Origin: Diabrotica undecimpunctata
Lineage: Eukaryota; Arthropoda; Insecta; Coleoptera; Chrysomelidae
Assembly (NCBI RefSeq): GCF_040954645.1
Contig: NC_092810.1
Span: 8,664,185-8,728,184, forward strand
Direction of reading: 5' to 3'
Length of the DNA: 64,000 nucleotides
Shown here one piece after another: positions 15,038 to 62,113 of this stretch (positions are counted from its first letter, which is position 1; the number at the start of each line of letters is the position of its first letter). A program made the translations under genes and the position numbers. Below the pieces are notes generated by a model, which ran no database searches, was not told the origin of the DNA, and was given only the letters and a program-made list of their open reading frames with translations.

Positions 15038-16704
15038 TGCACAAAATTTTGATTATTAGAATTGTCAGATTGTATCTGACCACTTGGATCTGATGTCCTA
15101 TGTCTTTCCCTACTATGACTTCTACTCACATTTTCCTGACTTGTACTACTTCGTTCCCTGTCTTCGCAGCTTCTATTCCTTCGAACACAATTTACCTGTC
15201 TGTTATAGTTAGGCTGCTCTGTATTTCTTCTATTATTAAAATCTTGTCTATTATTATTAGTACTGTTATTAAAATGTTGTCTATTATAATTAGTATTATT
15301 ATTAAAATATTGTCTATTATAACTAGTATTATTATTAAAGTTCTGTCTATTTGGATTACTGTTATAATTATTAAAATTTTGTAAATTATTACCATATCTA
15401 TAATTATTGTTATATGATTGTCTATATTGTTGAAAGTTATTATTGTTTTTTCTGTTGTTATTATTACTTGTCATATTGCCTCTTTGTATTCTTTGAATAA
15501 AATTAATAAAACTATCTATTGTTTGAATATTTTGTACAGTTACGGTTTGCACAACATCAGCATCAAAATGTCTAGATACATTTAAGACTGTTTCATCCTC
15601 TCTAAGTGGTGGTTCTAAATATTTTGCAACTGTTATCAATTTCAATGCATAATCTACCATATTTGATTTTAAATTTTGATTATACTTTCCAAAATATAGA
15701 ATTTCTCTAAACTTTGCTTGCTCTAATTCACCCCAATAATAATTTAAAAATTTATTTTCAAATGTTTGAAAGTTATCTAAATCATTTTCAATACTAGCAA
15801 ACCAAGTTGCTGCATTGTCATTTAATGTCATTCTAATATAATCTTTAATATCATTAATATTATTCACAAATCTTAATTTATGTTTTAAACTATTTATGTA
15901 TACTCTAGGATGCAAATTTTTTATATTACCAGAGAATTTAATCCCAGTCTCATTTGTTACATTTAAGTAAGGTCTCCCTATGTCTCTCATTTGTGAAATA
16001 TCATCTATTCTCTGTTCCACATTTCTTATTTGATTACTATTTATTTGGATATTTTGTTGTATATCATCTAATTTTTCTTCTGTGTTTCTCCTGTCTTCGT
16101 TAATTTTTACTTCTAAGTTACATTTCTGTAACTCTATTTTCTGTTCTATATCTATCTTATTATCTTGAATAATCCTCTTTACTTCTGTCCTCTCATTGTC
16201 TATCCTTTTCTTGTAGTCATTCCGTATACTTTTTATTTCATTTGCTACTTTTTTCTCTGCAGCTTCAAGTTTTTTATCCATTTGTTTTACAATTTTATTA
16301 TTATTATCTTCTATTTTCTTTTCTAATTTTCTATAATTCTCTTCCAATTTCTGTTCCATTTTTTTCATGTCTTCTTTGACTTCTTTTGAATTCTCTTTCA
16401 ATTTTTTTATGTCTTCTTTGATTTCTTTTGAATTCTCTTCCATTTTTTTTGTATTCTCTTCCATTTTCTGTTCCATTTTTTTCATGTCTTCTTTGATTTC
16501 TTTTGAATTCTCTTCCATTGTCTTGTTCATCTGCATCATTAATGACATCAAAGCTGCCATATTGACATTTTCCTCTCTTTCTGGATTCATTTCTGCAGTA
16601 TCTTGTGGAACTTGAACTAAACTCTCCTCTTGTATAGGTTGTGTTTCTACTTCCACATCTTCTTCATTCTTTTTGCTTCTTGTACCTTTCTTTCCTTGAG
16701 ACAT
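15034..16704 (-). CDS. gag: Gag-like protein with long N-terminal coiled coil
   Basis: 556-residue Gag of the LTR element, ATG at 16704 (MSQGKKGTRSKKNEE). Residues about 50-240 form a long charged coiled coil built from repeats such as MEENSKEIKEDMKKMEQ. The capsid-like part (about 265-415) includes YIRMTLNDNAATWFASIEND, FENKFLNYYWG and FREILYFGKYNQ, the pattern of retrotransposon Gag. The C-terminal third is Asn/Arg/Gln rich with near-repeats of RQ(Y/H/D)FNN, then an Arg/Ser stretch with no CCHC knuckle. Such basic low-complexity tails can replace the zinc knuckle in RNA binding; that is inference. The frame is intact and ends at 15034, overlapping the pol frame. Confidence 0.88.
   Translation of the reverse strand: MSQGKKGTRSKKNEEDVEVETQPIQEESLVQVPQDTAEMNPEREENVNMAALMSLMMQMNKTMEENSKEIKEDMKKMEQKMEENTKKMEENSKEIKEDIKKLKENSKEVKEDMKKMEQKLEENYRKLEKKIEDNNNKIVKQMDKKLEAAEKKVANEIKSIRNDYKKRIDNERTEVKRIIQDNKIDIEQKIELQKCNLEVKINEDRRNTEEKLDDIQQNIQINSNQIRNVEQRIDDISQMRDIGRPYLNVTNETGIKFSGNIKNLHPRVYINSLKHKLRFVNNINDIKDYIRMTLNDNAATWFASIENDLDNFQTFENKFLNYYWGELEQAKFREILYFGKYNQNLKSNMVDYALKLITVAKYLEPPLREDETVLNVSRHFDADVVQTVTVQNIQTIDSFINFIQRIQRGNMTSNNNNRKNNNNFQQYRQSYNNNYRYGNNLQNFNNYNSNPNRQNFNNNTSYNRQYFNNNTNYNRQHFNNSTNNNRQDFNNRRNTEQPNYNRQVNCVRRNRSCEDRERSSTSQENVSRSHSRERHRTSDPSGQIQSDNSNNQNFVQ
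15043..15049 (-). promoter_or_regulatory. Candidate -1 frameshift slippery heptamer
   Basis: On the minus strand the gag codons read A AAT TTT, a match to the X XXY YYZ pattern, two codons before the gag stop. The -1 pol frame is closed by a TAA at 15053-15055 and gag closes at 15034-15036. Any -1 shift must therefore occur within this 19-nt window, where the heptamer lies. I did not model a downstream RNA structure. Confidence 0.6.
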
Positions 16705-18285: not shown

Positions 18286-20803
18286 CGGGGATCCTACAGC
18301 TTCTGCCGCTTCCCGCATTTCGATCGCCCCATCTTTTTCTATCTCTCAGGTGTCTTCATCAATGGCTCTATCTTTCATGGTTTCCATAACACCTTGTATC
18401 CAAGACTTGACTGGTCTTCCTCGTTTCCTTCTATTACTTGGATTGTATTCCATAGCTCTTTTTGGCCATCTGTTGTCGTCCATCCTCTGTACGTGTCCAT
18501 ACCATATTAACTGTCTAGTTTCTATTCTTTCAGAAGTTGTATGTACTCTATCTGTTTTTCTTCTAATTTCAGAATTAGGTATACGTTCTACTTTTGATAT
18601 ACGGCAAGCTCTTCTTAGGTAGTCCATTTCAACCGTGTCAACTTTTTTCTTTCCTTTTACTGTCATTTGCCAACATTCTGCTCCATATGTAAGAATGGGC
18701 TCTACAATTACTTTGTAGATAGTCATTTTAGTTCTCATAGTAGCTTTGTTGATCGAATTGAGCTAGTATCGAATTCAGAATTTGAACACTCTTCCTGCCT
18801 TGTTGCACTCTATAGTCTATATCTCGTTCCGTTGTTCCTTTACTGCAGATAATACTTCCCAAATATTTGTATTCGTAGCACCTTTTCATTTGTATAATTT
18901 CCAAATCCGGGTCTTCGTCTTCACTGCCTATTCGCATATATTCTGTTTTAGACATATTCATACTCATCCCCCATTTTTCGTATTCATCTTTGAGCTTTCT
19001 AAGCATATAATCTGCATCTTCTTCACAGCTTACAATTAGTACTTGATCATCTGCAAAGAACAGCGTTGTCAGATAATGGTTGTTAAGCTTCAACCCCATT
19101 CCCGCACATTTTTGTCTCCACTGGTGCAGTGCTTCTTGGATATATATTTTGAATAGGGTGGGGGAAAGACAACATCCTTGTCTCAAGCCTTTCGTTACTG
19201 TAAATACCCTTGAGAAAGTATTTCCTGTTTTTACAGTGCTTTGAGGACATTTATAGATGTTCAGTATTGCTTTTAGATATGTTTTACTAAGGTCCGTTTT
19301 CGTCAAGACACTAAATAAGAGTTTTAAAGGAACTGTATCATAAGCCTTCTCCAGATCTATAAATACCAGATGCGTAGGGAGGTTTCGAGCTGTTCGTTTT
19401 TCAATTACTTGTTGAAGGGTAAATGTGTTGTCCACGCACGATCTTCCTGCTGTGAAGCCGCTTTGTTCTTTAATTTCTTTATGCTCCTCTTCTATTCTTC
19501 TTTTCAATATACGACCCTATAACCTTCCCAGCGAGCTAGTTACGCTAATGCCTCTATAATTTCCGCATTCTTTTCTGTCTCCCTTTTTATAAATGGGGCT
19601 AATGTGGGCCAAATTCCAATCGTCTGGAATCGTTTGGCCTTCAATTAAGCATTTATTAAAAATATTCACTATGCTTTCCAAAAGAGCATCCGGTCCATGT
19701 TTCACCAACTCGATGGGAATGTCTCCAGGCCCGGGTGCTTTTCCATTTTTCATTTGTTTCAATTCTTTTTTTAGTTCTTCTTTGTTTATCTTATGCACCT
19801 CTGAGTTTTCTATCATTAAGATATGGCCAGGTCTTTCCATAAATTCGTGCCTACTTTCTGTTAATAGCGTTTCGTAATATTTTTCCCACTTTTTATTTTG
19901 AATCAGGTTTATATTTCCCTCATCTTTTCTTTCTTTTCTAATACTTTTGATGAATTTCCAAGCTTGTGTCACTTTGGTTCCTCCTAAGCATCGGTCCATC
20001 TCTTCGCATTTCTCTTCCCACATTTCGTTTTTTCTTTTAGTGACTTCCTTCTTTGCTTCCCTGTTGAGTCTGCTGTAAATTCTGCGGTCTTCTGAGTCTT
20101 TCGTGGATAGCCATGTTTGATAAGCTTTTTTTTTGTCTTTAATTAATTTTCCTACTTCTTCGTTCCACCACTCAAGATTTTTTCTTTTGTCAGCTTCTTC
20201 GTACCCCAATGCCTCTTTGGCCGCCTGATGAATGCAATTTTTTATATCTTGATATTCTTTTTCGGCTGTTTCTCTTCGAGTTAAGTGAGTTAGTTTTGAG
20301 GCTAGTCTAAGTTTGTAGAGGAATTGTACTGATTCTTGTTTGAGGCTATCAATATTATATCTTATCTTTGTGGAAGCTGCTACCTTCTCCTGTTCAATTT
20401 TGTTCTTGTTTACTTTCCTGTAGTGTATGGTTATTTTTGCGACCACCGTATAGTGGTCAGATCCGCATTCGGCACCACGATACACCCTTACGTCATTTGT
20501 TTGGAGCCTTTTGTTTTCTGGTTGGATGAGATAGTCGATTATAGATTTTATCTTTTTCTTTGGTTGTTCCCAGGTAAATTTATGTATATCTTTGTGCTGA
20601 TAAAATCCATTCATTATTTTAAGCTGTAATGTTTCACAAAGATCAATGAGTCGCTCTCCGTTGTTGTTTATTTTGTCTTCACCATATCTTCCTACCACAT
20701 TGTCTTGTAATTTTTTGCCTACCCGAGCATTGAAATCTCCTAATAGGCATATTTCTTTGGATCGGTTTACATGAGTCAACACGTCAAGCAATTTGTCATA
20801 AAA
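18284..20803 (-). pseudogene. Family A RTE-like ORF2 (copy A1)
   Basis: 5'-truncated endonuclease-reverse transcriptase. It starts within the AP-like endonuclease (ICLLGDFNARVGKKLQD, GAECGSDHYTVVAK). RT follows with GKAPGPGDIPIELVKHG, PIYKKGDRKECGNYRGISV, GFTAGRSCVDN, HLVFIDLEKAYDTVPL, GLRQGCCLSPTLFKIY and the catalytic FADDQVLIV. The C-terminal region has ILTYGAECW, LIWYGHVQRMDDNRWPKR and RKRGRPVKSW. One nonsense codon (TAG at about 19514, where relatives have Tyr in LYGRILKRR) and one frameshift near 18740 break it. The FADDQ box, YRGISV and the GRP tail unite it with the copies at 24145, 28010, 33314 and 50234. Confidence 0.85.
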
Positions 20804-24144: not shown

Positions 24145-25977
24145 ATATAATTTCGGTTTACAACGTTCTTCGACGTCTTCCGATTTCCAATCTCTATCTC
24201 ATTCTATCGTTCCGTAGATCGTCTTCCAGTTCTCTTTCTCTGATTTCTTTATCAACTCCTTCTCTCCAACTTCTTCTAGGCCTTCCTGGTCTTCGCCTAC
24301 CTCTTGGTTGCCATTCAAGAATTTGTCTTGGTATTCTATTCTCCGGCATTATCCTTACGTGTCCGTACCATCTGAGTTGTGTCATTTTGATGTCATCAAC
24401 AATATTATGTGTAACCCCCATGATTTCTCGGACTCTCTCGTTTGTTATTCTGTCGCGTCTGGAGATTCCCGCCGAGCGGCGCCAGAAGTCCATTTCTGTT
24501 GCTCTAAGCATTTTCTCTGATCTGTCTTTTAGGGGCCACACTTCGCATCCATATGTTGTGATACTTTTTATTATGGTGTTGTATATTCTTCTTTTGTTGT
24601 CTTTAGAGATGTTTTTATCCCACAGTACGCTGTTTAGTAAGGCTATGCCTTTCCTTCCCTGTGTATTTCGTTCCTTAATGGCTGCATCTAATTTTCCGTC
24701 TTGAGTGATTTTTACTCCTAGGTATTTGTAGTTATCACATATTTTGATCTCTTGATTTTCCTCTACGAGAAGGTTATGTTGATCTCCTCCGATACTCATG
24801 TACTCAGTTTTTTCCATATTCACTTCCAAACCCCACTCTGTAAACTCTTCTAATAGTTTTCGCATCATGTAACTAAGCTCTTCAGAGTCCTGTGCGATGA
24901 TGACCTGGTCATCTGCAAAGCACAGAGTGTACAAAGTTAAGTCTATTAGTGGTATGCCCATATTCGTACATTTTTTCTTCCATTTGTTGAGTGCTGCTTC
25001 GAGGTATATTTTGAATAATGTTGGGGATATATAGCATCCTTGTCTTAGTCCTTTAGTCACTTTGATGTTATCAGATTTCCTGTTTTAATTCTTGTTGTTT
25101 GTTGGTAGTACAACGTTTTTACTGCTTCAATTAATTCTATATTTATATTTGTTTTCCCCAGTGCCTCCCATAATTTATCAAGCGGGATACTATCATATGC
25201 TTTCCTAAGGTCTACGAACGTCAGATGGACTTCTTGGCCACGAGCAACTTTCTTTTCAATTATCTGAGTAATAGAGAAGACATGGTCTATTGTAGATCGA
25301 CCTGCACGAAAACCATCCTGTTCTTCGGCTTCCATATCTTGGTATTCTTCTTCTATTCGATTTTTTATTATTTTCCCATATATTCTGCTAATACTACTAG
25401 TAACTGCAATTCCTCTATAGTTTTTAGGTTTCGATTTATCTCCCTTTTTATGGATGGTGCTCATATGCGATTCTTTCCATTCCTCAGGTATTTCATGTTT
25501 ATTTATGCATTCCTGGAAAAGTTGTCGTAGTCGTTGAATTAGTATTTTGGGTCCATGTTTAATGAGTTCCGGAGCTACATTTCCGGGGCCAGGTGATTTG
25601 CCATTCTTTAGATGTCTGCATACGGTTTCGACTTCTCTCTCATTTATTCTGATTGGTGACCCTATCAGCCTGACGCCTTGTAAACCATAGTTCTCTATCT
25701 GTTTGAAGGGCTCTCTTGTCTCTGTTAGTAAATCTTTAAAGTATTCTTCCCAAGTTTGCGGTGATATGGACTGGATAATATCTCTTTTTTTGTTGTTTCT
25801 TAAATTTTTTAACAGTTTCCAGCTTTCTGAACTTTGGCTTCCACCAATGTATGTATTTATCATGGTGCACTTTTTTTCCCAGGATTCATTTTTCTTTTGG
25901 CAAATTTTTCTTCTGACCATCGCTTGCATTCTTTTGTATTCGATTCTGTCTTCCACATTTTTTGTGTTGTGATGTAA
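24145..25977 (-). mobile_element. Family A LINE insertion (copy A2), 12-bp TSD
   Basis: 5'-truncated, minus strand, bracketed by cctcgatgttat (24133-24144 and 25978-25989), with a short TATA tail at the left edge. It encodes from the linker (RKICQKKNESWEKKC, INTYIGGSQSSESWK) through RT: GKSPGPGNVAPELIKHGP, TIHKKGDKSKPKNYRGIAV, GFRAGRSTIDHVFSI, LTFVDLRKAYDSIP, GLRQGCYISPTLFKIYLE and CFADDQVIIAQ. The tail has WYGHVRIMPENRIPRQ and RRRPGRPRRSW. One frameshift near 25060-25085 separates the two long frames, which are otherwise open. It lies inside RTE copy C1. Confidence 0.88.
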
Positions 25978-26340
25978 CCTCGATGTTATCGTTTTCTATT
26001 TCATTCTTAGTGATCTTCTCCGATATTCTTTTTCTGTATAAGTATTCCGTATTTAGTCCTACGACTTTGATTCTTGTTTGTATTGGCGCCGCTCTCTTGG
26101 GTGAAAAGTATTTCAGGATGATTCTTATTTTACATAATACATAATACATCTTACGTCGATTATTTTCGATGAATGTATATCGCTGTTGATTATAACATAA
26201 TCTATTGCAGATCTTTGTCCACGGGTGTTATTAAATGTATATTTGTGTTAGTTATTGTGGTCAAAAATGTGTTGATTATTCTTTTACTTTTACAATCGAG
26301 CCATGTTTTGAATATTTCTTCATTTTATTGCAATATATAA

Positions 26341-27267
26341 AATTAGACGCTTCTGTTTGTAAAATTTTTAAATTCATTCTTGTAAAGATTAGAGAGATAA
26401 TTTATTTGTTTAATAACTTTCTTTATAAAGTATTCTTGTATGTGAAAAGTTCATGCCATATACAATAGAATATTATCTTAACAGGTATCAAACATTGACA
26501 AGAAAGAATTGACCGTAAATCAAATTCCTTTAGAGGCTATTTATGAAAAAAGTTCGTATATTCCGCTCATTTTAAATTTTCAAAATCATAGAGATGCATG
26601 TAATTACCCTGAGTCCGTTTCTCACATCCTCTAGTGTAATTTCATGCCGTAACACTTCATAAACCAGCCTTGTTACTTTATTTGCAATAATTTCGAGTTA
26701 ATTAGCATATTTAGGACATTCTTGCCATTACCTTGGCGATACCGAACGTCTTTTTTCAAAGTTTCGGTGATATTTTGTAACTTTTTAATTAATGGTTAAC
26801 AGAATGGTCTTTTAGATAAGCTCTAAGTGGGTTATTAGTCACTAAAATTTTTCCTAACTTGACGGTCTTAGATTTTACCATTACTGAAATTATAAATTGG
26901 GCTATAAATTATGCACATTTTTGAGCTATAATGTCATACTAAAGTTTATGTTTATTCTTTTTACACCAATTATTAAATAATTATAAAAACATAAACATGT
27001 ATGAACAAATACCAATTGAAGACCTTATGGCAACATAATGGTAAGCCATAAAAGAAGAAAGCTGAGATAATAAGGTTTAAACTTTTAAAACAATCTTAAA
27101 AATATTGAGTTAACTTTATAAAACCATAACTCTTGTTATTTACATATATTATTTTACAGAACAAACCAATGTTTATAAAAAATTAAGTTTATTTAAAAAA
27201 AAAATGTGGCTTAACATATTTCTTTATTTAACAAATCGTAACACTATATTGGAAAAAAATTATAAAA
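26341..27267. other. No recognised gene; one coding-like stretch
   Basis: AT-rich spacer between the RTE copy C1 and the DUF7869-like remnant. The minus strand around 26690-26590 reads EIIANKVTRLVYEVLRHE then ITLEDVRNGLRVI, which looks protein-like. A stop lies just upstream and I cannot place it in a family. Confidence 0.4.
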
Positions 27268-27359
27268 TTATATATCTACAATTTGCACATCTTCATTACC
27301 ATTGTCAGTAGCTTCTTTCAGCTGATTATAAAAGTATGATAGACTGGCGGAATATAAGG

Positions 27360-30300
27360 TATAGTATTTTTCATATAAAAATGCGTGCACGTCATTTAAG
27401 ATTTACGACGTCAGAACCCCACAGCGTTGCCAAAACATCAGAATAGTTAGTAAGTGAGGAATTTTTAAAATGTCAAGTATTTGTCAAAATATTATATTAA
27501 CGGTAAATACACTTAGTTCTAAGATTACTGCAACTCACCTACATAAAAATACCATTTTAATACAAACTTATATACTCTAAATTTTAAACTTACCACTTTT
27601 AGAGCATTAATAATAAAAAAGTCCCGCCATTATTTCTTGTTTAAAATATTCTATCTTATATGAAAGCCTATCAGTTTTCTACAGACTATTTCGTTGTTTT
27701 GGCATAGCACAATCACAATACACAACAATAATTAGTTTTTAACGCTATTAATCTAAATTTAATATGTATTTATAAATACAATTTATTAATATATAATATA
27801 TTATGATCAAATTGTGTAAGAAATCAAAACATAAACAAAATTCTTACTCTAAAAAAGCGGCAACAGTTTAAACAATTTTACCACACGCTGAACTGTCAAA
27901 AAATTTGAAGTATTCCCATACCAGTTGCGTACAATTATCTAATATATTTAATTAAGATTATTATTTTTTTGAATATTAGACTTAGAAAGTTATTTAATAA
28001 AATTTATATATATATATATTTAGGGATTCTACAGTATTCACTGCCTTCCCTCGCTCAACCGTTTCCATCTCTCTCTGTTGTTCCATTCTCCATCGTTTAG
28101 TCCTCTCTTACTCATGGCGTCGTCTACTTCGTTCCTCCAGGATTTTCGGGGTCGTCCCCTTTTCCTCCTTCCTATGGGGCTCCATTCGGTTATTCTTTTT
28201 ATCCATCTGCTTTCGCTAGCTCTTCTTACATGTCCATACCACTTTAGTCTTTTTTGTTCTATATATGTTAGTATGTCTGTTTCTATTGATGTTCTTTGCT
28301 TTATTTCGTCATTACTTCTCCTATCCATTCTTGTTACTCTGCAGCATCTTCGCAGGCATTCCATCTCTGTTGCTATTATCTTACTGCTGTTTTTCTTGTT
28401 TATGATCCAATTTTCGGCCCCATATGTCATAATACTTCGCACTAATGTTTTATTAATCTGCGTTTTTGTCTTCATATTTAGGTGTCTATCCCACCATACT
28501 GAGTTAAGTTGTCGGATTGCTGTTCTTGTTTGTCCTAATCTTTGTGTAATTTCTTCCTCTGTTGTTGCCTTTTTCCCATTATAAACCCCAGGTATTTGAA
28601 TTTATCCTTTCCTTTGATTGTTACGTTGTCATCAATCTGTAGATCTTCTATGTCTTCTTCACTTGTAGATAGGTACTCTGTTTTCGCGAGGTTAATATCT
28701 AGGCCAGCCTTGGTATATTCTTCTTGTAGTTTCTTCATCATGTAGCTGAGGTCGTCTTGGTCTTGTGCAATCACTACTTGATCGTCTGCAAAACTTAACG
28801 TATATAGGTATTCGTTCCGTACCGGTACTCCCATGCCTTCGTATTTTCTTTTCCATGTAGTCAAGGCTTTCTCTAAGTATATTTTGAATAGGGTTGGAGA
28901 TGTGGAACAACCCTGCAGGAGCCCTTTTGTTGTGGTGAAGTCTCCTATGATTCTTGTTCCCATTTTAATTGACACTTTATTTTCTTTATACAGAGCTTTT
29001 GTAGCTTCTATGAGTTCCGTCTGTATTTCTAATTTGTACATTGCCTCCCATAGTTCTGACCTTGGTACAGAGTCATACGCCTTTCTCAGATCCACAAATG
29101 CCAAGTGTATATCTCTATTTTTTGCTTTTTTCTTTTCCAACAGTTGTTCCAGTGTGTATATGTGGTCTATGCATGATCTTCCTGCCGTGAAGCCTGCCTG
29201 ATCCTCCCCGATTTTGCCTTTTATCGCTTGCTCTATCTTTTCTCGCAGTATCTTCCCATATAATCTTCCTATTGATGATATTACGCTTATTCCTCTGTAG
29301 TTTTCGCATCGGTTTCTATCTCCTTTCTTAAATATAGATGTCATATATGCCGCCGTCCATTCCTTTGGGAGCTGTTCTCCATTTATGGCTTTCTGAAATA
29401 TCCATTGTATCATCCGGTGTAATTTTTTTGATCCGTATTTTATAAGCTCAGGTGAGATGCCTCCAGGTCCCGGTGCTTTCTTATTTTTGATTGCTTTTAT
29501 GGCCGTTCTCATTTCCCTATCTGTTATTTCTATTTCTTGTTGTGGGAATCTGCTTCGTCTTCGCCTGTTTTCTTTTTCAATGAATTGTGGTCTTTGTTCT
29601 GTTAATAGTTCCTTGTAGTAGTCCTTCCATTCTTTGTCCTGTATATTTCCCAATTTAGTTTTTTCTTTTGAGTTTTGTTTCAATCCTCTCAGTACTTTCC
29701 ATGACTCCGAAGTTCTTGTACCTCCTATATATGTTTCAATATTTAAGCAGATTCTTTTCCATTCTTCATTCTTTTGCTGTGTTATTTGTTTTTTCACTTC
29801 TCTATCTTTTTCTCTATATTCTTTTTAAACTTCATCGTTGTTTGTAGTCAGCCATTTTCTGTATAGTTGCTTTTTTTCTTCAATTATTCTTTTTGTTGGT
29901 TTATTTATTTCATTATAGTGCTGTTTATTTGTTATATGTTCTTTTTCCCCAAGGGCTTCGAATGCTGCTTGCTTTATACTCGCCTTTATATGCTCGTATA
30001 TTTCTTCGATGTTGCCGTATCTAAATTCTATTAATTTTTGGTCTAGACGTTGTTGGTATAGTTCTCTTATTGATTGTTCTTGGAGTAGTTCTATATTGTA
30101 TTGTTTTACTCTTATAGTGTTCAACGGTTCTTCGGTGGAGGGGGTCTTGTTATGTTTCCAATTAATGCCCATTTTTGCTGTCAGTAGTCTATGGTCCGTT
30201 CCACATTCTGCTCCTCTTTTGACTCGCACATCTTTGATCTTTATTGTGGTATCTTGTTTGATTATTATGTAGTCTATTATCGATTTCAGCTTTCGTGTTT

Positions 30301-41033: not shown

Positions 41034-41750
41034 ACTAACTAACTTTCTAAAAGCAAACATACGTGAATAATCTATTTAATATTAAAATTATTTTAACTAA
41101 CTCTATTTTATATTTTAAAGTTTTTTTTTATATTAAAACTAGTATTTTCTTAAATACTTAACTGTAATCTTTAACTTTGTTAAAGAACATTTTGAAGACA
41201 CTTAAAACAAACAATTTGCAGGTTAGCACAGTTCTGTAGTAAATTTAATATAAAAACCCTCTGGCTACAAATCCACTACCGAGAAGTAAAGCTGAACTCC
41301 ATGCAAATGTGAGCTAATTAGGAGCTATAACCATTATTAGCATCGCTATTAACGCTTAGTTGGACCGTTGCATGAATTTTAAGAGCTTTGTTCTAATTTT
41401 CAATCCAACCGGAACTAGGCCGTATGTATGATTGTTTCTAACGAAGGTTTTTATGCAGGAAGACCGTAATTTTGTATGGTATTAGGTTAATAATGCTAGC
41501 CTGCAATCGTGATTAATATTGCACTGAATAAGGCTACATTACGAATTAGAATAAATGAAGTATAGATTTTTTGTTGCTTATTCCTACTTTTCTACTGTCA
41601 TGTAGTTAATGAGGCTATACCCAAATAAAACGTGATGTGCGCGCATTCTAAGGATATTGGCAGGAAATGTCGATTTTGATCAATGCCTTCAAATCGTGCC
41701 TTGGTTTCAAGGCTGTAAGTTTAATCATAATTTTCATAATTTTTTAATCA
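41034..41750. other. No recognised gene
   Basis: AT-rich sequence before the satellite array. No ORF or repeat structure recognised. Confidence 0.45.
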
Positions 41751-43735
41751 TTTCGATATACTCTGTACGAGTACTAGAAACCAATTCGCTAAGAATTTTG
41801 CTTAGTTGAGGAGATATGTTGTGGAATGCAATTTTTAGATTCCCCATGTCTCTCTTAACATCTTTATCAACGTCTGTTTTGCCTTGCAATTCTTAGAAGG
41901 CAGAGATTAAAGCGGAATTCTTGAATTTGGTTTCGAAAATTAGTCTACGATTTTATTATCAGATGTCGCTACATTGCGTCTATACGAAGCCATGTTAGAG
42001 TTGCTTCCTAAGACAGAAAATATTTATTTCACGTTCAGAGCGATTGCGAAAGCCGTTCTGATGAGGCCTATTGGTCCGAAATACGTATAAGCTGATGCGC
42101 AAGCGCCCTGTATGTGAAATTAAATCTTAACTGTCTTTTCCTTTTTATTTCGATATACTCTGTACGAGTACTAGAAACCAATTCGCTAAGAATTTTGCTT
42201 AGTTGAGGAGATATGTTGTGGAATGCAATTTTTAGATTCCCCATGTCTCTCTTAACATCTTTATCAACGTCTGTTTTGCCTCGCAATTCTTAGAAGGCAC
42301 AGATTAAAGCGGAATTCTTGAATTTGGTTTGCAAAATTAGTCTACGATTTTATTATTAGATGTCGCTACATTGCGTCTATAGGAAGCCATGTTAGAGTTG
42401 CTTCCTAAGATAGAAGAGATTTATTTGACGTCCAGAGCGTTTGCGAAAGCCGTTCTGATGATGCCTATTGGGCTGAAATACGTATAAACGGATGCGCAAG
42501 CTCCCTATACGTGAAATAAAATCTTAACTGTCTTTTCCTTTTTATTTCGATATACTCTGTACGAGTACTAGAAACCAATTCGCTAAGAATTTTGCTTAGT
42601 TGAGGAGATATGTTGTCGAATGCAATTTTTAGATTCCCCATGTCTCTCTTAACATCTTTATCAACGTCTGTTTTGCCTTGCAATTCTTAGAAGGCACAGA
42701 TTAAAGCGGAATTTTTGAATTTGGTTTGCAAAATTAGTCTACGATTTTATTATTAGATGTCGCTACATTGCGTCTATACGAAGCCATGTTAGAGTTGCTT
42801 CCTCAGACAGAAAAGATTTAATTCACGTTCAGAGCGATTGCGAAAGCCGTTCTGATGAGGCCTATTGGGCCGAAATACGTATAAGCGGATGCGCAAGCGC
42901 CCTGTACGTGAAATCAAATCTTAACTGTCTTTTCCTTTTTATTTCGATATACTCTGTACGAGTACTAGAAACCAATTCGCTAAGAATTTTGTTTAGTTGA
43001 GGACATATGTTGTGGAATGCAATTTTTAGATTCCCCATGTCTCTCTTAATATCTTTATCAACGTCTGTTTTGCCTTGCAATTCTTAGAAGGCAGAGATTA
43101 AAGCGGAATTCTTGAATTTGGTTTCGAAAATAAGTCTACGATTTTATTATCAGATGTCGCTACATTGCGTATATACGAAGCCATGTTAGAGTTGCTTCTT
43201 AAGACAGAAAATATTTATTTCACGTTCAGAGCGTTTGCGAAAGCCGTTCTGATGATGCCTATTGGGCTGAAATACGTATAAACGGATGCGCAAGCTCCCT
43301 ATACGTGAAATAAAATCTTAACTGTCTTTTCCTTTTTATTTCGATATACTCTGTACGAGTACTAGAAACCAATTCGCTAAGAATTTTGCTTAGTTAAGGA
43401 GATTTGTTGTAGAATGCAATTTTTAGATTCCCCGTGTCTCTCTTAACATGTTTATCAACGTCTGTTTTGTCTTGCAATTCTTAGAAGGCAGAGATTAAAG
43501 CGGAATTCTTGAATTTGGTTTCGAAAATTAGTCTACGATTTTATTATCAGATGTCGCTACATTGCGTCTATACGAAGCCATGTTCGAGTTGCTTCCTAAG
43601 ACAGAAAAGATTTATTTCACGTTCAGAGCGATTGCGAAAGCCGTTCTGATGAGGCCTATTGGGCCGAAATACGTATAAGCGGATGCGCAAGCGCCCTGTA
43701 CGTAAAATCAAATCTTAACTGTCTTTTCCTCTTTA
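41751..43735. repeat. Tandem satellite, five 397-bp monomers
   Basis: The landmark tttcgatata recurs at 41751, 42148, 42545, 42942 and 43339, exactly 397 bp apart each time. The last unit ends near 43735. The end of each unit (cgaaatacgtataagcgg and flanks) comes in two variants that alternate, units 1, 3 and 5 versus 2 and 4. The middle of the unit groups differently, 1, 4 and 5 versus 2 and 3. This indicates unequal exchange or gene conversion. Units 1-4 keep a 72-codon open frame on the minus strand, which I attribute to shared sequence rather than a gene. Confidence 0.95.
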
Positions 43736-44962: not shown

Positions 44963-47188
44963 TAAAGCTCGGATTTATAGGCAACAAAAATTGAAGAAAA
45001 AGGCGCCTATATAGACAAAGATTTTTATTAAAAAAGGCAGGAATATTAACATTTAGGCAAAATATAGGCAATAAAGGAATATAACTTATTATTTATTGTA
45101 CAAAGTGAATTAACGTAATATTAACTTAAGGCAGGTATATTTGCACATCATAATCATAACATTAGTATGAATAAACTAGTAACTAAATAACTGTAAATTA
45201 ATAATTAAACATTGTAACCACTTAAAATTCTATCATTAATAGAAACAACTAAATGTTTTTCAATATTTTCGGTCTTAAAACTATGTCTTAAATTTGTCGA
45301 TCACTTAAAATTAATTTGTACATTGAAAACGAACGTTTGACATCGACAGATGTAATTGGAGCATATTTCAGAGCGGATAATAAATCTGGCATAATTTGAA
45401 ATTTCTCGGAAAATGTCCCATTCAAAACTTTAGCAACATTAAATAAAAACGAAAAACCTTTATTCTTGTCGAAAACATATTTCATTTTTTTTTTTAATTA
45501 ATTGACCGTTACTTTCAGGTGCCGATTTAATTTTCCTCTTTAAATTATCTATTAATTTTACTGACTCACATAAATTCTTGTTTTTCTAATAAGGTAATTG
45601 TGGTAACTATTAGTTTATAATTGTCATTGATATAAGCGAGTTCCTGTTTCAATTTGGGATTTTTTAATATTTTTTTGCTTCTCGAATGGCTTCGGAAATA
45701 TCATCATCAAATTCTGACATAACTAATTCTATTTCATTGCAGTGTTTAAAGTAAAAAAAACTGCTTCAAGCCAGGTTCCCCAACTTGTAATTACTGGTTT
45801 AGGTGGCAAAGGGACACCGGGAAGTCTTTCTTTATATATTTGCACTCTCAACGTAGACTTTACAAAAACTTTTTTTATAACATTTATAAAATTATTTACC
45901 AACGGAAACAGATTTCTTATTTCTTCAGCAATTCTATTTATCCCGTGGGCTACACAAGTGCAATGAATTAAATTAGGATAAAAAATCTTTAAATTAACAG
46001 CAGCTTTTAACATATATGCCGCAGCATCTGAAAGCATTAAAACTATGTTATTCACTGGTATAGCGTTGGGTAAAAAGAGTTTTGTTAAACTATCTTGTAT
46101 AAATCGACTTATTGTTAAATTATTTGTTTTTTCCAATTCTTTAACGGCAACTAAATAAGGTTTTCTCGCAAAGTTTTCGTTCAAAATTCCAATCATTAAA
46201 TTAGCTATATACCTGCCGCATACATCTGTCGTTTCATCCACGATAATATACAAAAAATTGCCCTCTAACTCCCGCTTAATTTTTGAAATACATTCCACAT
46301 AACATTTTTTCACAGTATGTTTTCTCAATGTACTCTCGTCCGGTAAGGATTTATTAAGATATTTTTCGAAAAAGCATTTAAAACTAAGGTTATTAACTTT
46401 ATATAGAGGAGTGTTGGATGCAATCATCATCTGGCATAAATCAAATTTAAATGCGTCTTCCTCCTTTTTTTTTTGAACTGCTTAAACTATCCCGCAGAGA
46501 TATTTGGGCTAATTTAGAGGAATTTAATTTTTCCAAATTCCGTTTATGAAGTGGGGTTCCACAGTGCTGGTCAATAAAGTACTTTTTTCTACTTGAAATC
46601 TGAGAATTTAAAAAACAAATAATTGGAATTTTAAAATCGCTTTAGAATTTAGTTATGTTGTGGGACGAGAAAAAATAAATCTTACCGATTTGCCGCATGG
46701 TTTACAAAATGCTCAATCTCCTTCTAAAGAAAGTTCCGAATAAGGTGCGATCTATAGCCTTAATTTAGATGTTATCTTTTCACACAAATGTCTAAAACGT
46801 TTTAAAACGTGTTCTTTTGCTTTTCGGTATACGCAACAAAACTAAACTCGGATATAGCAATTTGTGACTAAACTCTGATACAGTAACCGACTGTACAATT
46901 GATAATAAACTAATAAAGGTTAGGGATTTCCAAATAGTTAATCCTCAAGTCTCGATCAGGTACATTTTCCTAGAAATCTGTTATATAAACAAACCATTGA
47001 TATTTTATTATTGACCCAAAATTTTATTATAGAATGGTATAGTAATAGAATAATATCATGGGTAGTACCATGAAATTTTAAAAAAGACACAAATAGGCGG
47101 AATTTACGAAAAAAGGGAAAAAATGCAAAAAACAATTATAATAGGCAAAATAGGCCAAAAAGGCATTTTTCCTATAATTCGAGCCTTA
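44963..47188 (-). mobile_element. hAT transposon (CGGBP-like lineage), 8-bp TSD
   Basis: A 2226-bp element with termini taaagctcggatttatagg on the left and cctataattcgagcctta on the right, an imperfect TIR of about 19 bp. The flanks are ttcatgac (44955-44962) and ttgatgac (47189-47196), seven of eight bases matching, the TSD length of hAT. It carries a broken transposase on the minus strand. Removing it rejoins LINE ORF1 in frame. Confidence 0.82.
45288..46600 (-). pseudogene. hAT transposase (CGGBP1-related)
   Basis: The N-terminus near 46600-46440 has a zinc-finger end (FIDQHCGTPLHKRN). A 10-A run near 46466-46475 shifts the frame. The long open part (46430-45729) has FLYIIVDETTDVCGRYIANL with the first catalytic Asp region, VLMLSDAAAYMLKAAVNLK, FYPNLIHCTCVAHGINRIAE and PVITSWGTWLEAVFF. 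The C-terminal dimerisation region near 45380-45290 reads YAPITSVDVKRSFSMYKLIL followed by SDRQI. Further frame breaks lie at 45745-45480. The motifs match the hAT lineage related to CGG-triplet-binding protein 1. Non-functional. Confidence 0.82.
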
Positions 47189-47689: not shown

Positions 47690-49104
47690 ATTGTTGTAAT
47701 TGATGTTAGTTGTAACTGAACTGTTCAACGCCATATACGATTCAGGTAATATCCCAGAGGAATGGCTATTGTCAACATTTGTAACGCTATCAAAAAAACG
47801 ATCTGCGAAAACGTGCGAAGATTTCCGAACTATCAGTCTTATGAGTCATGCACTTAAAATTTTTCTTAAAATCATACATGCCAGAATTTACAAGAAATGC
47901 GAAGAAAATGTCGGTGAAATGCAATTCGGATTCCGCAATTCTATGGGTACACGTGAAGCACTTTTCACCTAAGTCCTACTTCAGAGATGCCGCGATGTCA
48001 GTTGTGATGTCTATATTTGTTTTATTGACTACGCCAAGGCATTTGACCGTTGTCAGCACCAGAAGATGGTCACCGCACTACAAAGAGTAGGATTGGATGA
48101 AAAGGACATTCGGATCATCATGAATTTATACTGGAACCAGCTTGCTCAAGTCAAGGTCGAAGACCAGCTGACCGACCAAGTGAAGATCATGCGAGGAGTA
48201 AGGCAAGGATGTGTGCTATCGCCGACTCTTTTCAATATATACTCTGAGGAGATTTTTAATGAAGCCCTCACAAACCTAGACATGGGAATCCGAGTGAACG
48301 GTGAATACATCAATAATATCCGCTACGCCGATGACACTGTGTTACTGGCAACCAGCCTAAACGATCTTCAGGCCTTACTAGACCGAGTGCGAACTGTGAG
48401 CGTAACATACGGACTGAACCTTAATATTAAGAAAACTAAATTCATGGTTGTCAGCCGTACAAATTTAGATCCCGGGGCACTAATGGCAGGTAGCGAAGAG
48501 ATCCAGAGAGTCGACAGATTCACTTACCTCGGAACTACCCTCAACGTACAATGGGACTACGCTCAAGAGATTAGATCCAGAATTGAAATGGCACGGTCTA
48601 CTTTTATTAAGTTGAGATCCTTGCTGTGCTGCAGTGATCTCAGTTTGGGAACCAAGATGCGGATAGTGAGGTGCTACGTTCTTCCAGTGTTACTATATGG
48701 AGTTGAAGCCTGGACACTGACGCAAGCCACTGAAAAACGAATCGAAGCCTTCGAGATGTGGATATACAGAAGGATACTAAAAATATCTTACCATGTCACC
48801 AACGTTGAGGTCCTACAGCGCATGACAAAAGAAAAAGAAGTGCTTAATTTAATTAAACAACGTAAGCTTGAGTACCTCGGCCACGTGATGCGGAACGAAG
48901 AAAAATATCGAATTCTTCAACTTGTTATGCAGGGTAAAGTATTTGGCAGAAGAGGACCGGGACGCCGTCGTATCTCGTGGTTGAAAAATCTCCGACAATG
49001 GTTTGGGATGACCTCAGCGGAGCTGTTTCGCAGAGCAGTCAACAAAACCATGATAGCCTTGATGATCGCCAACATCCGGACCGGATAAGGCACTGAAGAA
49101 GAAG
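47690..49104 (+). mobile_element. Family B LINE insertion (copy B5), 10-bp TSD
   Basis: 1415 bp, 5'-truncated, flanked by atcgatgtta (47680-47689 and 49105-49114), ending in a (GAA)n tail. One reading frame runs almost the whole length. RT motifs are EEWLLSTFVTLSKKRS, FRTISLMSHALKIFLKIIHA, YICFIDYAKAFDRCQHQ, RGVRQGCVLSPTLFNIYSEE, RYADDTVLLATSLNDLQALL and LNIKKTKFMVVSR. The tail has LLYGVEAWTLTQATEK, FEMWIYRRILK, YLGHVMRNEEKYRILQLVMQ and GRRRISWLKNLRQWFG. One nonsense codon at 47970-47972 (TAA, consistent with an original CAA) is the only break, so this is the youngest family B copy here. The endonuclease is missing through 5' truncation. Confidence 0.92.
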
Positions 49105-51525: not shown

Positions 51526-51579
51526 AACTTAAATTATTATTCCTTAGTCAAACACTTTTGTAAAATAGAATTCATAAAT

Positions 51580-53920
51580 GAAGAGTGGCCGAGCTAAGTG
51601 ATCTAAGTACCAAAATTAACAATTGCCAGAAATAAAAAAAAAAACTTTATTAACCAAAAAAATAAAACAAATATATAATTGTTTATGGAAATTCAGCTTC
51701 ATTAACAAGTACCTAAATAACGTATAACAAATTTTCGGTGTTAATATACTAAACAAACTTAGTAATACTCAATAAATGAAGAAAAAATGGAAATGATCTA
51801 ATTCCACAGGAATAATATTTGACTAAATATCTAAAATAGAGGTGAAAAATGCTCTATTTTCGTGGTTAATTCTAGCATGGCGCGAAGGTCTTTTTTCTTA
51901 CTTTCGTTTATTTGCTGAACACCAGAAAAACCCAAGAGCTCTGTCTACTTTAACTTTTAAACAGTCACACCTTTTTTCAATACACGACACTTCTCCCATC
52001 CAATTAAGTCACTAAAATTTTTCTTGTACCACACTGTTCCCGGCTCTGCTTTCGTCACACGTAACCACGATGCTTGAGTAATACCAAGTTTAGATGTATC
52101 TATACATTCTGATGATATTTGATCGAAATCAAAGAAAGTACATTCTCCCATATCTAAAAGTCTGTAAGGTCTGAAAGGTCTAGCAGCAGCAATTACAGTT
52201 TTTAAATCGTTTACTGTTTGAAGCTTGGAACATTTTGCTCGTTTCTCTATAAGAGCAAAATCTCTATCTGAAGATGAAAAGCTATGACCGGAAACTAAAA
52301 ATGTATGATCAATGGTATCAAAATGTCCATTAGCTACTAAGAAAATGTATAAGAAGATAAACATTCGGTTTTTCAGTTGACCTGCACAGTTGTCGCTCCA
52401 TATACATAGTTTTCGCTTATAAGTTGAAAGCTCTCCTGTATTCAAGGCTTGTAAAAAGAATGATGCCATTTGGTTCCCACCACGACCCGATTGTCCTTCA
52501 TGCCAGATGCACATTATCCCATCTGCAGTATCTTGCATGTGTATTCCAAAATTGTAGCATGACAATTGGCGGCTGTAATACATACTACTATGCGTCAATT
52601 TGGGAAGCGAAAATACTTTTTGTAGATCCATGGTAATGGTACAGGTATCGCTACCTGGAAGAGTACTGCTCGTACTATCTTCTTGAAAAACATTAAGAGC
52701 TTTATCTGTTTTTCTATGATGTAATTCCAACTCATTTTTAGCTTTTCTGGATATACTAAGGTCTTTGTCCTTGCCTCTTAAAAAAAGTAAATCACAAGTC
52801 TTACAGGTGTCAACTCTAGGTTTTCTAAAAGAAAGATTCGGAAAATCCTTCATAAAAACTTTCCTATAGAATTTGTATGTTGTGGTGCTGTCAGGATGTT
52901 TTATTTTAAAAGAGTTGTATAGCTTATTAACATTGAGGTCTGGACTGAGATATTCCTTTTCACTTTTTGAACGACTGTAGTGGCTCTCGTCCCTCGGGAA
53001 GCTATTGATGTGATTATTTACCATCTGTCTGTCATGAAGAGTATACTTAAATTTTCTAACACCTCCTCGTTTATCCTTAAAGGTTGTATGTCCCTCCTTT
53101 TTACGCCTAACAAGCGTAGTAATCTTTTGCGGACTTATAGCAAATATTTCCAAAAACGTTTTTTTACAAACTCTTTTCACATTACCTTCCCCATCTGGAA
53201 CAAAAAAAGCTACGGTACACTGTCGTCTACTTTCTGATGAATCACCAGAACTACCATTGCGGCGACGTTGGATTGGTAAAACTTGCAATAATCCCATGAG
53301 ATAGCTGCCTTGCTCGTTGAGTTCAAGGCCATGATACAAGTCGAAAAGCTTAATTTTTATATCAACCACGTATCTACAGCTGAATTTACATTTGCACGTA
53401 ATCTAAAATCTCATGATAATATATCATATCAACAAAGCCAAAGTAGCAATAAAAAAAGTTTTATGTAGCTATTCACAAATTTCAAGCGAAATATCTGTTA
53501 AAAATCTCGTACTAACCTCATTTTTTGGAATGGCCTTTCCAAGTTTTTGAAGCTTACATTTTTGTGTAATGTAGGGTTTTCCACTCAATCTAGCTTCACT
53601 CTGTTTTCTTCTTGACGATATTGTTTTCTTTTTATCATCAAACCCACTAGAATCCATTGTATTTACTTTAAAACACAAATTCATCAATCGATTCTAACGA
53701 CACTACGTCAACCTGCAAATGGCACTTAGATCAATTAGCACAGCACATGATCTCGGACTTACAGGCGGCTCCACCTTTGGGCTTTGTTTGCAATCACTAG
53801 AGTGAAGTTAGCACGTAGATCTCATAGGGGGACATTGGCATAGGAACATTGATCATATTGATTGAATAAAAACAAAATTTTATGTTTTGGCACTTAGATC
53901 ACTTAGCTTGGACACTCTTC
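51580..53920 (-). mobile_element. TIR transposon carrying an intact DUF7869-like gene
   Basis: A 2341-bp element. Its imperfect terminal inverted repeats (51580-51615 and 53885-53920) match at 33 of 36 positions, beginning gaagagtg and containing agctaagtgatctaagt. AAAT flanks both sides (51576-51579 and 53921-53924), a possible 4-bp target-site duplication. The right subterminal region repeats the TIR core as ggcacttagatcaattagc at 53721-53739, with 18 of 19 bases matching 53889-53907, as expected of transposase-binding sites. The only gene inside is the two-exon DUF7869-like gene on the minus strand. Confidence 0.82.
51957..53657 (-). CDS. DUF7869-like putative DDE transposase, two exons
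   Basis: Predicted 528-residue protein. Exon 1 is 53657-53517 (ATG, MDSSGFDDKKKTISSRRKQS to AIPKNE), with donor GAG|GTTAGT. Exon 2 is 53402-51957, after acceptor ATTTTAG. Both keep phase and no stop interrupts. Exon 2 opens with a Cys cluster (ITCKCKFSCRY). A second Cys pair is in RVDTCKTCDLL. Three acidic motifs follow: TITMDLQKVFSLPKL (D306), CIWSDNCAGQLKNR (D384) and SGHSFSSSDRDFALIEKR (D426 to E433). Order and context suggest an RNase-H-like nuclease core. I recognise it as the arthropod family labelled DUF7869; the transposase role is my inference from the enclosing TIRs and from a second copy at 27268-31390. An alternative is a host gene captured by a transposon. Confidence 0.78.
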
Positions 53921-53924
53921 AAAT

Positions 53925-54360: not shown

Positions 54361-56384
54361 CAGGGTGGCGCACCGAAAACGAAACAGATGCATTTACTGG
54401 CAGATGATTCCTTTTTAAAAAAAACGCTTGGACCCGTCGATTTTGTTATCGAGGGGGACACAAAATTGGCATAAAATCACATTAACATTTGCAGCCCCCT
54501 AAGCGGGGGTGGCACCATCCCTAAAATCTTAAATAGAAAGGAAGGTCGAATGATCCATCATTTAAAAGGTCTTTCAACTCCCTTTACAATGATGTAAAAT
54601 TCATGTACTTCAATTCAGTAGTTTTGGAGATTTATTGATTTAAAGTTTAAATACATCATCGTAAGAGGAGATCAATACATAGCAGCAAAGTTGTTAAAAA
54701 ATAAAGAATGAACTGACCTGTCAGCCGAGTAAATGTTGAAAATGACCACCATTACTTTCCATGCAATAATAAAGATTTTGCTGAAAACGTTGCCGGACAT
54801 TTTGCAATATTTGAGGAGTAATTTGATGGCACTCATTCACAATTCTTTGCCGTAAATCTTCTAAGGATGTTGGCTGAGTAGCATAGATTTTGCTTTTTAA
54901 GTAACCCCACAAAAAGAAATCCAAAGGTGATAAATCTGGCGATCTTGGGGGCCATTCAACGGCACCTCTTCTACCAATCCATTGATCTGGAAAGGTATGA
55001 TCTAAATATTGCCGAACTCTTAATGCGTAATGTGGTGGGGCACCATCCTGTTGGAACATCAACATATTCTCAACGTATCGACCATCATTCTGATTTTCAA
55101 TTATATCTATTAGCGCAGGATCTATGGCATTTTGCAGTAATTCCAAATACATTTCACCAGTCAAATTTCCAGGTAAGAAAAAAGGACCAACCAAATGATT
55201 GCCAAAAATGCCAGCCCAAACATTTAATTTTTGTGGCTGCTGTGTGTGTACCTCATGGTAAATTCTGGGATTAGAGTCCGACCAATATCGACAATTATGA
55301 CGATTTACTTCGCCATTTAAAAAAAAGGAACATTCGTCGGAAAAGCAAATGTTAAATAAAAATTGTTCATCGTTTGTAATTCGTTCACTCATAACTTCAC
55401 AAAATTCTAATCGCTTATCAAAATCGTCTTCAATAAGTTCTTGTATAAGGTGAATTTTATACGGATGAAAATTATGGGCCTTTAGAATCTGTTGGATAAT
55501 ACGTCGACTAACACCACACGAAGTTTGCAATTTGCGGGTACTTAATGTAAGATCTACAATAACTTGCCCTAAAACCTCCACTTCTGTTGCTTCGTTCCTT
55601 ATAGGATTTTCAATATTACGTTTTTTATTGGCAACTGATCCAGTTTCCCGAAATTTAGCTACAAGTTCTAGAACATATTTTCGGTGCACATTATTGTTCT
55701 CATGTCGCTCATTAAAAATTTGTGCTGTTCTATTAGCGCACTGATTATTTCCGAAAAATATTTCAATAATTTCAACCCTTTCTGCCGTGGAATATACCAT
55801 GGTTAATTTATGTATAAAGCAATAAATGATATTTTAACAACAAAGATTGGTCAAATCAATCGCAAACTATAATTATAATGTACTATTTCCTTTAAAATAA
55901 GTACGTGGCATTCTCTACTTATCTTTCTTCAAGAAACAACTTTTTTTGTCACAAAGGACACTTCAATTGCTATTTTTATTATTAATAAACCATGGGCGTA
56001 GTAAATAAAAGCATTTACTTATCAGGAAAATGCTTTTACTCAAATTTCTTCTGACAGAAGTACAAACTAATTTGATGTACCTATTAAAGTCTACTTTAAA
56101 CTTTAAATCAATAAATCTCTAAAACTACTGAATTGAATACATGAATTTTACATTATTATAAAGGGAGTTGAAAGACCTTTCAAATAATGGATCATTCGAA
56201 CCCCCTTTTCATTTAAGATTTTAGGGATGATGCCACCCCCGCTTAAGGGGCTGCAAATGTTAAAGTGATTTTATGCCAATTTTGTGTCCCCCTCGAAAAC
56301 AAAATCGACGGGTCCGAGCGTTTTTTCAAAAAAGGAATCATGTGCCAGTAAATGCCTCTGTTTCGTTTTCGGTGCGCCACACTG
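54361..56384 (-). mobile_element. DD41D Tc1/mariner-superfamily transposon with long TIRs
   Basis: A 2024-bp element flanked by TA (54359-54360 and 56385-56386). Termini are cagggtggcgcacc on the left and ggtgcgccacactg on the right. The inverted repeats extend for about 295 bp (54361-54655 and 56091-56384) with scattered mismatches and small indels, which is long for this superfamily. A single intact transposase ORF lies between them. It is the best-preserved mobile element in the window next to the DUF7869-type one. Confidence 0.92.
54721..55800 (-). CDS. Mariner-like transposase (DD41D), intact
   Basis: 359 residues from ATG at 55800 (MVYSTAERVEIIEIFFGNNQ). The N-terminal helix-turn-helix DNA-binding region covers about residues 1-110 (NVHRKYVLELVAKFRETGSV, LQTSCGVSRRIIQQILKAHN). 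The catalytic core has CFSDECSFFLNGEVNRHNCR (first Asp), LMFQQDGAPPHYALRVRQYL (second Asp) and WPPRSPDLSPLDFFLWGYLK (third Asp). I count 41 residues between the second and third Asp, which places it with DD41D relatives of mariner (rosa/Visitor-like groups). No stop or frameshift is present, so it may be functional. The stop codon leaves only about 66 bp to the inner edge of the left TIR. Confidence 0.92.
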   Translation of the reverse strand: MVYSTAERVEIIEIFFGNNQCANRTAQIFNERHENNNVHRKYVLELVAKFRETGSVANKKRNIENPIRNEATEVEVLGQVIVDLTLSTRKLQTSCGVSRRIIQQILKAHNFHPYKIHLIQELIEDDFDKRLEFCEVMSERITNDEQFLFNICFSDECSFFLNGEVNRHNCRYWSDSNPRIYHEVHTQQPQKLNVWAGIFGNHLVGPFFLPGNLTGEMYLELLQNAIDPALIDIIENQNDGRYVENMLMFQQDGAPPHYALRVRQYLDHTFPDQWIGRRGAVEWPPRSPDLSPLDFFLWGYLKSKIYATQPTSLEDLRQRIVNECHQITPQILQNVRQRFQQNLYYCMESNGGHFQHLLG

Positions 56385-60047: not shown

Positions 60048-61501
60048 TTCTTCTTCTTCAAGTGCCATCTTCGTTCCGAAGGTTGGCGATTATCAGGGCT
60101 ATACGTATTTTCGAAACTGCTGACCGAAACAATTCGTTGCTGCTACAGCTATACCATTCCCGTAGATTCTTTAGCCAGGAGTTTCGTCTTCTTCCTATGG
60201 ACCTTTTTCCTGCTATTTTCCCTTGCATAATTATTCGAAGCAGTTTATATCTTTCGCCTCTTGTAATGTGTCCCAAGTATTGCAGTTTTCGTTTTGTGAT
60301 CGTAAATATGACTTCCTTTTTTTATTCATTCTTCTCAAGACCTCGACATTTGTGACTCTCTCGGTCCATGATATTCTCAGGATTCTGCGATACATCCACA
60401 GTTCAAATGCCTCTAATTTTTTGGTATCAATCTTTTTCAACGTCCATGACTCCATTCCGTAGAACAGCACAGAAAGTACGTAACATCTCATCAGGCGAAG
60501 TTTCATTTCAAGGCTCAAATCTCTTCCGCAGAACACTCTCTTCATTTTAGTGAATATGGATCTGGCTTTTTCTATTCTTATTTTGATTTCTGCTGAGCTA
60601 TCGTTGTCTTCATTTATAAAAGTGCCTAAATATTTGTATTTGCTAACTCGATCGATAATTTCATTGTGTAAATATAAATTTTGAACATTTTGTGTTGATT
60701 TCGATATTACCATAAATTTAGTTTTCTTTATGTTCAAAGATAGTCCATATTCTTCGCTGCAGTCTGCTATCTTATTCACCAATGTCTGTAGCTCTTCAAG
60801 TGTTTCTGCGATCAGAAAGGTGTCGTCGGCAAATCTCAGATTGTTTAATTTAACACCATTTATTTTAATACCTACGGATTGCTCAGAGAGTGTTCTATTC
60901 ATTACGTCTTCGGAATAGAGATTAAACAGGGTTGGTGACAGTATACACCCTTGTCTCACACCTCGCTTTATTTCAATTTCTTCAGTGGTATTATTCTCTA
61001 CTCTCACTACTGCTTTCTGATTGTAGTACATATTTGCTATTAGTCGGATGTCTCGTTTATCTAAATTCTTTTCTGTCAGGAGTCTGATTAGGTGATCATG
61101 CCGCACTTTATCAAAGGCCCTGTTGTAATCTATGAAACACATGAATACATCTTGATTTATATCAAGACATCTTTGAGACATAACGTTCAGTGCAAACAAC
61201 GCCTCTCTTGTTCCAAGTCCATTTCGGAATCCAAACTGGATATTATTGATGTCCATTTCCAGTTTTCTGTGTACTCTAGAGTGTATAATTTTCAGAAATA
61301 TTTTCAGTACATGGCTCATCAGACTGATTGTACGGTAATCACTGCATTGTTTGGGATTTATCTTTTTTGGTATAGTAACAAAGGTGGATAAAAGCCATTC
61401 TTGTGGTATTTTTCCTGATGTATAAATGCTATTGAAAAGTTTAACTAAAATGTGAATCGAGTCTTTTTCTATTAGTTTAAGGATTTCCGTTGGTATTCCG
61501 T
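60048..61501 (-). mobile_element. Family B-related LINE (copy B4), 11-bp TSD
   Basis: 1454 bp, 5'-truncated, bracketed by tggtaagacac (60037-60047 and 61502-61512). On the plus strand the left edge is (TTC)n, the complement of a (GAA)n tail. One long frame (about 61501-60300) covers the RT: GKIPQEWLLSTFVTIPKK, YRTISLMSHVLKIFLKIIHS, FMCFIDYNRAFDKVRHDH, RGVRQGCILSPTLFNLYSED, RFADDTFLIAETLEELQTLV and LNIKKTKFMVISKS. Then come LFYGMESWTLKK, FELWMYRRILRISWTERVTN and, after a single frameshift near 60315, YLGHITRGERYKLLRIIMQG and GRRRNSWLKNLREW. The catalytic FADD is intact. Confidence 0.9.
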
Positions 61502-61512
61502 TGGTAAGACAC

Positions 61513-62113
61513 AATAAATGTTAAATTTTTTTCTTAACATTTTGTTTATTTTTTTAACTAACCCTTTTTGAGTTTCATTTAAAAAACATATGTTTTTCAT
61601 TTTTAATAATTACTTCGATAGTTACAACTAGCTGTTGTAATAGTTATAATTAGGCACCTGAAAGTGGCGTTCTTTTTAAATTACTAGAGGTGCTTCCTGA
61701 TTCCTTTCTGTGTTTTGTTTTATTTGTCCCAAGAGATTCTTGACATTTGTTTCATATTTTTGTATTTGCCCCAATCCAAATCCCTTGTCATTTACTTATC
61801 CACGACCCCAACTCTCCTAACAAACCCTGAGTGCCGTCCGCATACGTTTCGATTATTTTGCTTGCCCTATCTCCGCCCCAATAATGTCTGTTCCCAATTT
61901 TCTACTCCTTATAATAATACCCCATGCGGTAAGCAAAATAATTCGTTACACTACAAGGTCTGTATCGCTGTTTATATTGTAATTATTCATAGATAATCAT
62001 AAATAATCATTTTTTCACGAATTTAACAATTTCCATTCTGTTCTGCATTATTGTAGCTCAAAGTATTATATTTAATTTGATTTTTAACTCTTATTCGTCT
62101 AGTAATTCAGATG
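61513..62113. other. No recognised gene
   Basis: AT-rich spacer between two LINE insertions. Nothing recognised. Confidence 0.5.

Follow-up and report, generated by a model that had tools for sequence, protein, structure and literature searches.

Can a gene whose only recognizable domain is one of unknown function, DUF7869, be assigned a role in DNA transposition? This question was raised by a locus within a 64,000-nucleotide stretch of the Diabrotica undecimpunctata genome (contig NC_092810.1, positions 8,664,185 to 8,728,184; hereafter, the window), in which a sequence-only reading had recognized a DUF7869-like gene bracketed by terminal inverted repeats (TIRs) of 36 base pairs (bp). The two TIRs were confirmed as identical at 33 of 36 positions, with three mismatches (92% over 36 bp). 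We conclude that the DUF7869 protein is very probably the transposase of a family of cut-and-paste TIR transposons. This is drawn from the presence of many copies with fixed ends, target-site duplications of 4 bp, empty sites, a predicted RNase H-like fold, a second family in the same genome, and bacterial loci built alike. The earlier proposal that this protein moves a TIR element thus received strong support from the copies, the duplications, the empty sites, and the predicted fold.

Genomic copies, target-site duplications, and empty sites

A DNA search of the 1.74-Gb D. undecimpunctata assembly with the element, in which 40 of 299 candidates were scored, yielded 107 rows. Many of these were short TIR-to-TIR cross matches, and at least 31, the window copy included, covered all 2,341 bp. 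Both ends were kept in 38 of the 40 copies retrieved; the other two (L057 and L058), each with one end missing, were left out, resulting in a set of 38 copies with a mean pairwise difference of 2.1%. The AAAT duplication previously regarded as possible was present on both flanks of the window copy, and exact 4-bp duplications were found in 33 of the 38 copies once the ends were placed by TIR match (an automatic first pass had counted 30). As a control, pairing the left flank of one copy with the right flank of another gave 15.8% agreement, and in 10,000 shuffles agreement never exceeded 15 of 38. Most of the exact duplications read AWWT (AATT, ATTT, AAAT, or ATAT; 26 of 33), and all except one conformed to ANNT (32 of 33).

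A search for empty sites with the joined flanks of the L021 and L026 insertions returned 40 rows, four of which were the copies' own flanks; five of the remaining 36 were retrieved and aligned. Paralogous empty sites were found for both insertions. Two sequences (L069 and L070) cross the L021 junction with a single AATT at 78 and 75% identity, respectively, and three (L066, L067, and L068) cross the L026 junction at 75–76% identity, although AAGG stands there in place of the AATT of the filled site. As a separate observation, the flanks of copies L025 and L056 match in opposite orientation as far as the point of insertion, a pattern suggestive of insertion at approximately the same place in two members of one repeat.

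Predicted fold and catalytic residues

The protein directly matches the Pfam family DUF7869 (PF25273), whose name gives no function, over residues 356–481 (E-value 2.7e-13; 50.4 bits against a cut-off of 26), and this was the only Pfam family matched up to E = 1. NCBIfam gave nothing above its cut-off (one chance match lay far below it), and no PHROGs match was obtained at thresholds as loose as E 0.1; one PDB sequence search produced three matches at E 0.16–0.24 and another none. Structure prediction suggested an RNase H/DDE core, with mariner Mos1 and the transposase domain of Metnase among its structural matches. The predicted core runs in the order β1-β2-β3-α-β4-α-β5-α, with the acidic residues on β1, β4, and the last helix, and would share this order of strands and helices with Mos1 and the retroviral integrases. 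It differs from them in its third acidic residue, an Asp located early in the last helix, in the 4-bp ANNT duplications of the element, and in sequence, with 7–16% identity in the rows listed.

The sequence-only reading had considered D306, D384, and either D426 or E433 as catalytic candidates. The three Asp residues (numbered on the 528-residue protein) were invariant in all 94 proteins aligned; the corresponding D259, D337, and D379 of P0001 occurred in every one of the 63 rows of alignment A1, as did their equivalents in all 36 rows of alignment A3. The Pfam match spans part of the predicted core, including D384 and D426 and leaving D306 outside. The position of E433 (E386 of P0001) was occupied in the 36 rows of A3 by Lys in 24, Arg in six, Ser in one, and Glu in five, and E433 was rejected as a catalytic residue, being unconserved in the bacterial-type rows of this alignment. 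Judged from residue conservation, the putative catalytic triad is DDD (D306, D384, and D426).

The appearance of Mos1 and Metnase among the structural neighbors could be taken to indicate a diverged Tc1/mariner, piggyBac, or Kolobok element, an explanation we regard as extremely improbable. All 33 exact duplications are 4 bp long and mostly AWWT, unlike the 2-bp TA of Tc1/mariner; TTAA, which bears on piggyBac and Kolobok, occurred in none of the 33, and DUF7869 is the sole Pfam match. As for the three outcomes that the sequence-only reading had named as contrary to its proposal, none occurred: the TIRs enclose the gene elsewhere in the genome, empty sites were recovered, and an RNase H-like core was obtained in the prediction.

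Gene structure and state of the window copy

The element contains a single long open reading frame (ORF), that of the DUF7869 gene, for which a two-exon model on the minus strand gives 528 residues. Two alternative splice options give 510 residues each; the option adopted for the model preserves the three cysteines of a CxC..C pattern, which are present in all 36 rows of A3. The consensus splice sites on which the two-exon structure had been proposed recur across the family, with the GT donor and the AG acceptor each present in 36 of the 38 copies. The gene had also been described as free of stop codons, which holds up to residue 528; in six of the 38 copies, the frame continues to 574 or 579 residues. 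These longer frames imply that the window-copy protein is C-terminally truncated and rule out a full-length gene here; the description of the copy as fully intact was not supported. Both ends and the three Asp residues are retained, and the last 46 residues of the full-length copies are missing; for this reason, the window copy may need another copy's help to move and probably depends on a full-length sibling. The ratio of nonsynonymous to synonymous polymorphism (pN/pS) was 0.82 across all pairwise comparisons of copies, the kind of value expected if the copies decay once inserted. Since copies with full-length frames exist, activity is directly testable.

A second family in the same genome

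When this genome was searched at the protein level, 92 rows were obtained, including a group at mostly 60–64% protein identity (about 62%) with several open frames. Six stretches of this second family were retrieved, five of which had both ends, and one (L062) was without the outer part of one TIR. Exact 4-bp duplications flanked four of the five (AATT in three and ATTT in one), the fifth (L060) having ATAT on one side and ATGT on the other. The two families share a TIR core, AAGTGATCTAAGTGCC, located at positions 17–32 from the end with zero or one mismatch. On the side upstream of the gene, both also carry an extra core copy approximately 185 bp from the element end, which was seen in five second-family copies, and the second family has one further core copy approximately 62 bp inside the end. 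The subterminal repeat of the core had already been noticed in the window element. Allowing up to three mismatches, the core was matched three times in the window and never in 100 shuffles, and at the same tolerance, the mean number of hits was 0.015 when the element was subjected to 200 single-letter shuffles.

Relatives in insects and bacteria

The window protein had 235 relatives; among the 120 listed, all those with an organism name were from insects, and the insect DUF7869 proteins listed were deposited as uncharacterized or hypothetical. A scan of genome contigs added 11 loci titled bacterial, with relatives at 20–33% identity, and both bacterial proteins scanned against Pfam (those of L004 and L009) exceeded the DUF7869 cut-off. 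Eight of the 11 bacterial loci (all except L008, L010, and L011) were checked for inverted repeats. In seven, the gene was flanked by inverted repeats of 39–64 bp that were 75–100% complementary (L007 being the weakest at 75%), defining inferred elements of 2.06–3.54 kb; around the gene of L001, no inverted-repeat pair was found. The duplications at these seven loci were weak, with an exact 4-bp duplication in two (L002 and L003) and the pattern A..T on both sides in all seven.

A search with the L004 protein, in which 7,996 candidates were scored, gave at least 551 relatives, and PF25273 was present in 118 of the 120 listed. The predicted model of this protein (predicted local distance difference test score, pLDDT, 78.5) displayed a core and structural neighbors as for the window protein. 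Where the names of the 120 listed relatives were usable, they read hypothetical, apart from one chaperonin. This last protein (P0139), a bacterial DUF7869 protein, appears to be misannotated. The domain is sparse: two bacterial genomes had a single match apiece, and among 297 genomes from the phylum of the genome carrying L004, a family search recovered it in one, the starting genome itself. No relative was found in phage records, and none of 12 pattern matches in viral contigs was a relative; a second search of viral contigs found none.

These loci also bear on whether the gene could simply be riding along, as a passenger or as a host gene that has been domesticated, in a non-autonomous element moved by another transposase. 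A position between TIRs is by itself no proof that the product moves the element. However, there is no other long ORF in the element, two families with about 62% protein identity hold the gene between related TIRs, bacterial DUF7869 genes likewise lie between inverted repeats, and the fold prediction points to a DDE enzyme, all of which renders a passenger highly unlikely.

With the DUF7869 protein taken as the transposase, its cysteine-bearing N-terminal parts would bind the TIR core and the core copies upstream of the gene, and its RNase H-like catalytic core (D306, D384, and D426) would cut the element out. The same core may then join the element to target strands 4 bp apart at AT-rich ANNT sites, and gap repair would turn this 4-bp stagger into the duplication. 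Self-regulation, if any, is a step that we could only infer. In practical terms, DUF7869 genes in insect annotations call for checking, and masking them as transposases is probably warranted; the bacterial DUF7869 genes are worth examining as an insertion-sequence family.

Relationship to Sola2 transposons

The 2009 Sola paper is said to have distinguished three groups differing in target preference. In the available parts of published descriptions, Sola elements possess DDD transposases and 4-bp duplications, range from bacteria to metazoa, and are mostly 2–9 kb in length with TIRs of 11–1124 bp (PMC10741241), and Sola2 is characterized by AT-rich 4-bp AWWT duplications, with a slime-mould example bearing an 888-residue transposase (PMC3627910). 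As far as these descriptions extend, the element studied here agrees with Sola2 in its 4-bp duplications, 26 of 33 being AWWT, and with Sola in the DDD triad of its protein, in a total length and TIR length that lie inside the published ranges, and in the occurrence of relatives in both bacteria and metazoa. Because of the length and sequence of the duplications, the triad, and the host range, we consider the element to be probably a Sola2-type transposon, likened by published descriptions only; DUF7869 would therefore represent part of a Sola-type transposase core. One difference concerns size, in that the full-length transposase has 574 residues in an element of 2.34 kb, compared with 888 residues in the one slime-mould example described in those parts.

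This shorter transposase would also be in keeping with DUF7869 elements constituting a separate superfamily across bacteria and animals, similar to Sola2 merely in duplication length and triad. Neither the word DUF7869 nor any of six DNC-GQ motif strings was found in the literature searched, the NCBIfam and PHROGs searches were negative as given above, and the listed relatives of the L004 protein with usable names are termed hypothetical, except for one chaperonin. Against these points, the triad, the AWWT duplications, the size, the TIR range, and the spread from bacteria to animals all match the Sola descriptions as far as available, and we consider a separate superfamily rather unlikely. 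Equally tentative is the reading in which DUF7869 would define a DDD superfamily apart from Sola, one that takes in animal transposons as well as insertion sequences of bacteria whose TIRs are long and whose 4-bp targets fit ANNT; its bacterial members would then form an insertion-sequence family that has so far gone unrecognized. The sequence-only reading had presented the connection between DUF7869 and transposition as new; the absence of the word from the literature searched agrees with this, but the fit to the Sola2 descriptions, in the parts available, makes the novelty doubtful.

Features of the element and its surroundings

The coordinates of the element are collected in Table 1.

Table 1. 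Parts of the DUF7869 element, in window coordinates
Feature	Position	Strand	Basis
Whole transposon, 2,341 bp	51580-53920	- (strand of its gene)	TIRs, flanking duplication, and genome copies
Left target-site duplication, AAAT	51576-51579	no strand	Flank comparison
Left TIR, 36 bp	51580-51615	+	Inverted-repeat match; core at element positions 17-32
Exon 2, 481 residues and stop	53402-51957	-	Splice prediction; stop early relative to six sibling copies
Predicted intron, GTTAGT..TTTTAG	53516-53403	-	Splice prediction; sites kept among copies
Exon 1, 47 residues	53657-53517	-	Splice prediction
Subterminal repeat of the TIR core	53721-53741	-	Pattern match; upstream of gene
Right TIR, 36 bp	53885-53920	-	Inverted-repeat match
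Right target-site duplication, AAAT	53921-53924	no strand	Flank comparison

Judged by ORF labels assigned by eye, the window is rich in transposable elements. A Tc1/mariner-like transposase ORF of 359 residues lies near the element (54721-55800, minus strand), and hAT-like transposase fragments were labeled at 7716-9234 and 45729-46430, both on the minus strand. ORFs resembling those of long terminal repeat (LTR) or long interspersed nuclear element (LINE) retroelements occur at 13373-16704, 18728-20791, 24194-29797, and 60231-61514 on the minus strand and at 48066-49088 on the plus strand. The window also harbors a tandem array of a 397-bp unit in five copies with 94% matches (41750-43735), and one flank of element copy L044 resembles this array region at 73–75%.
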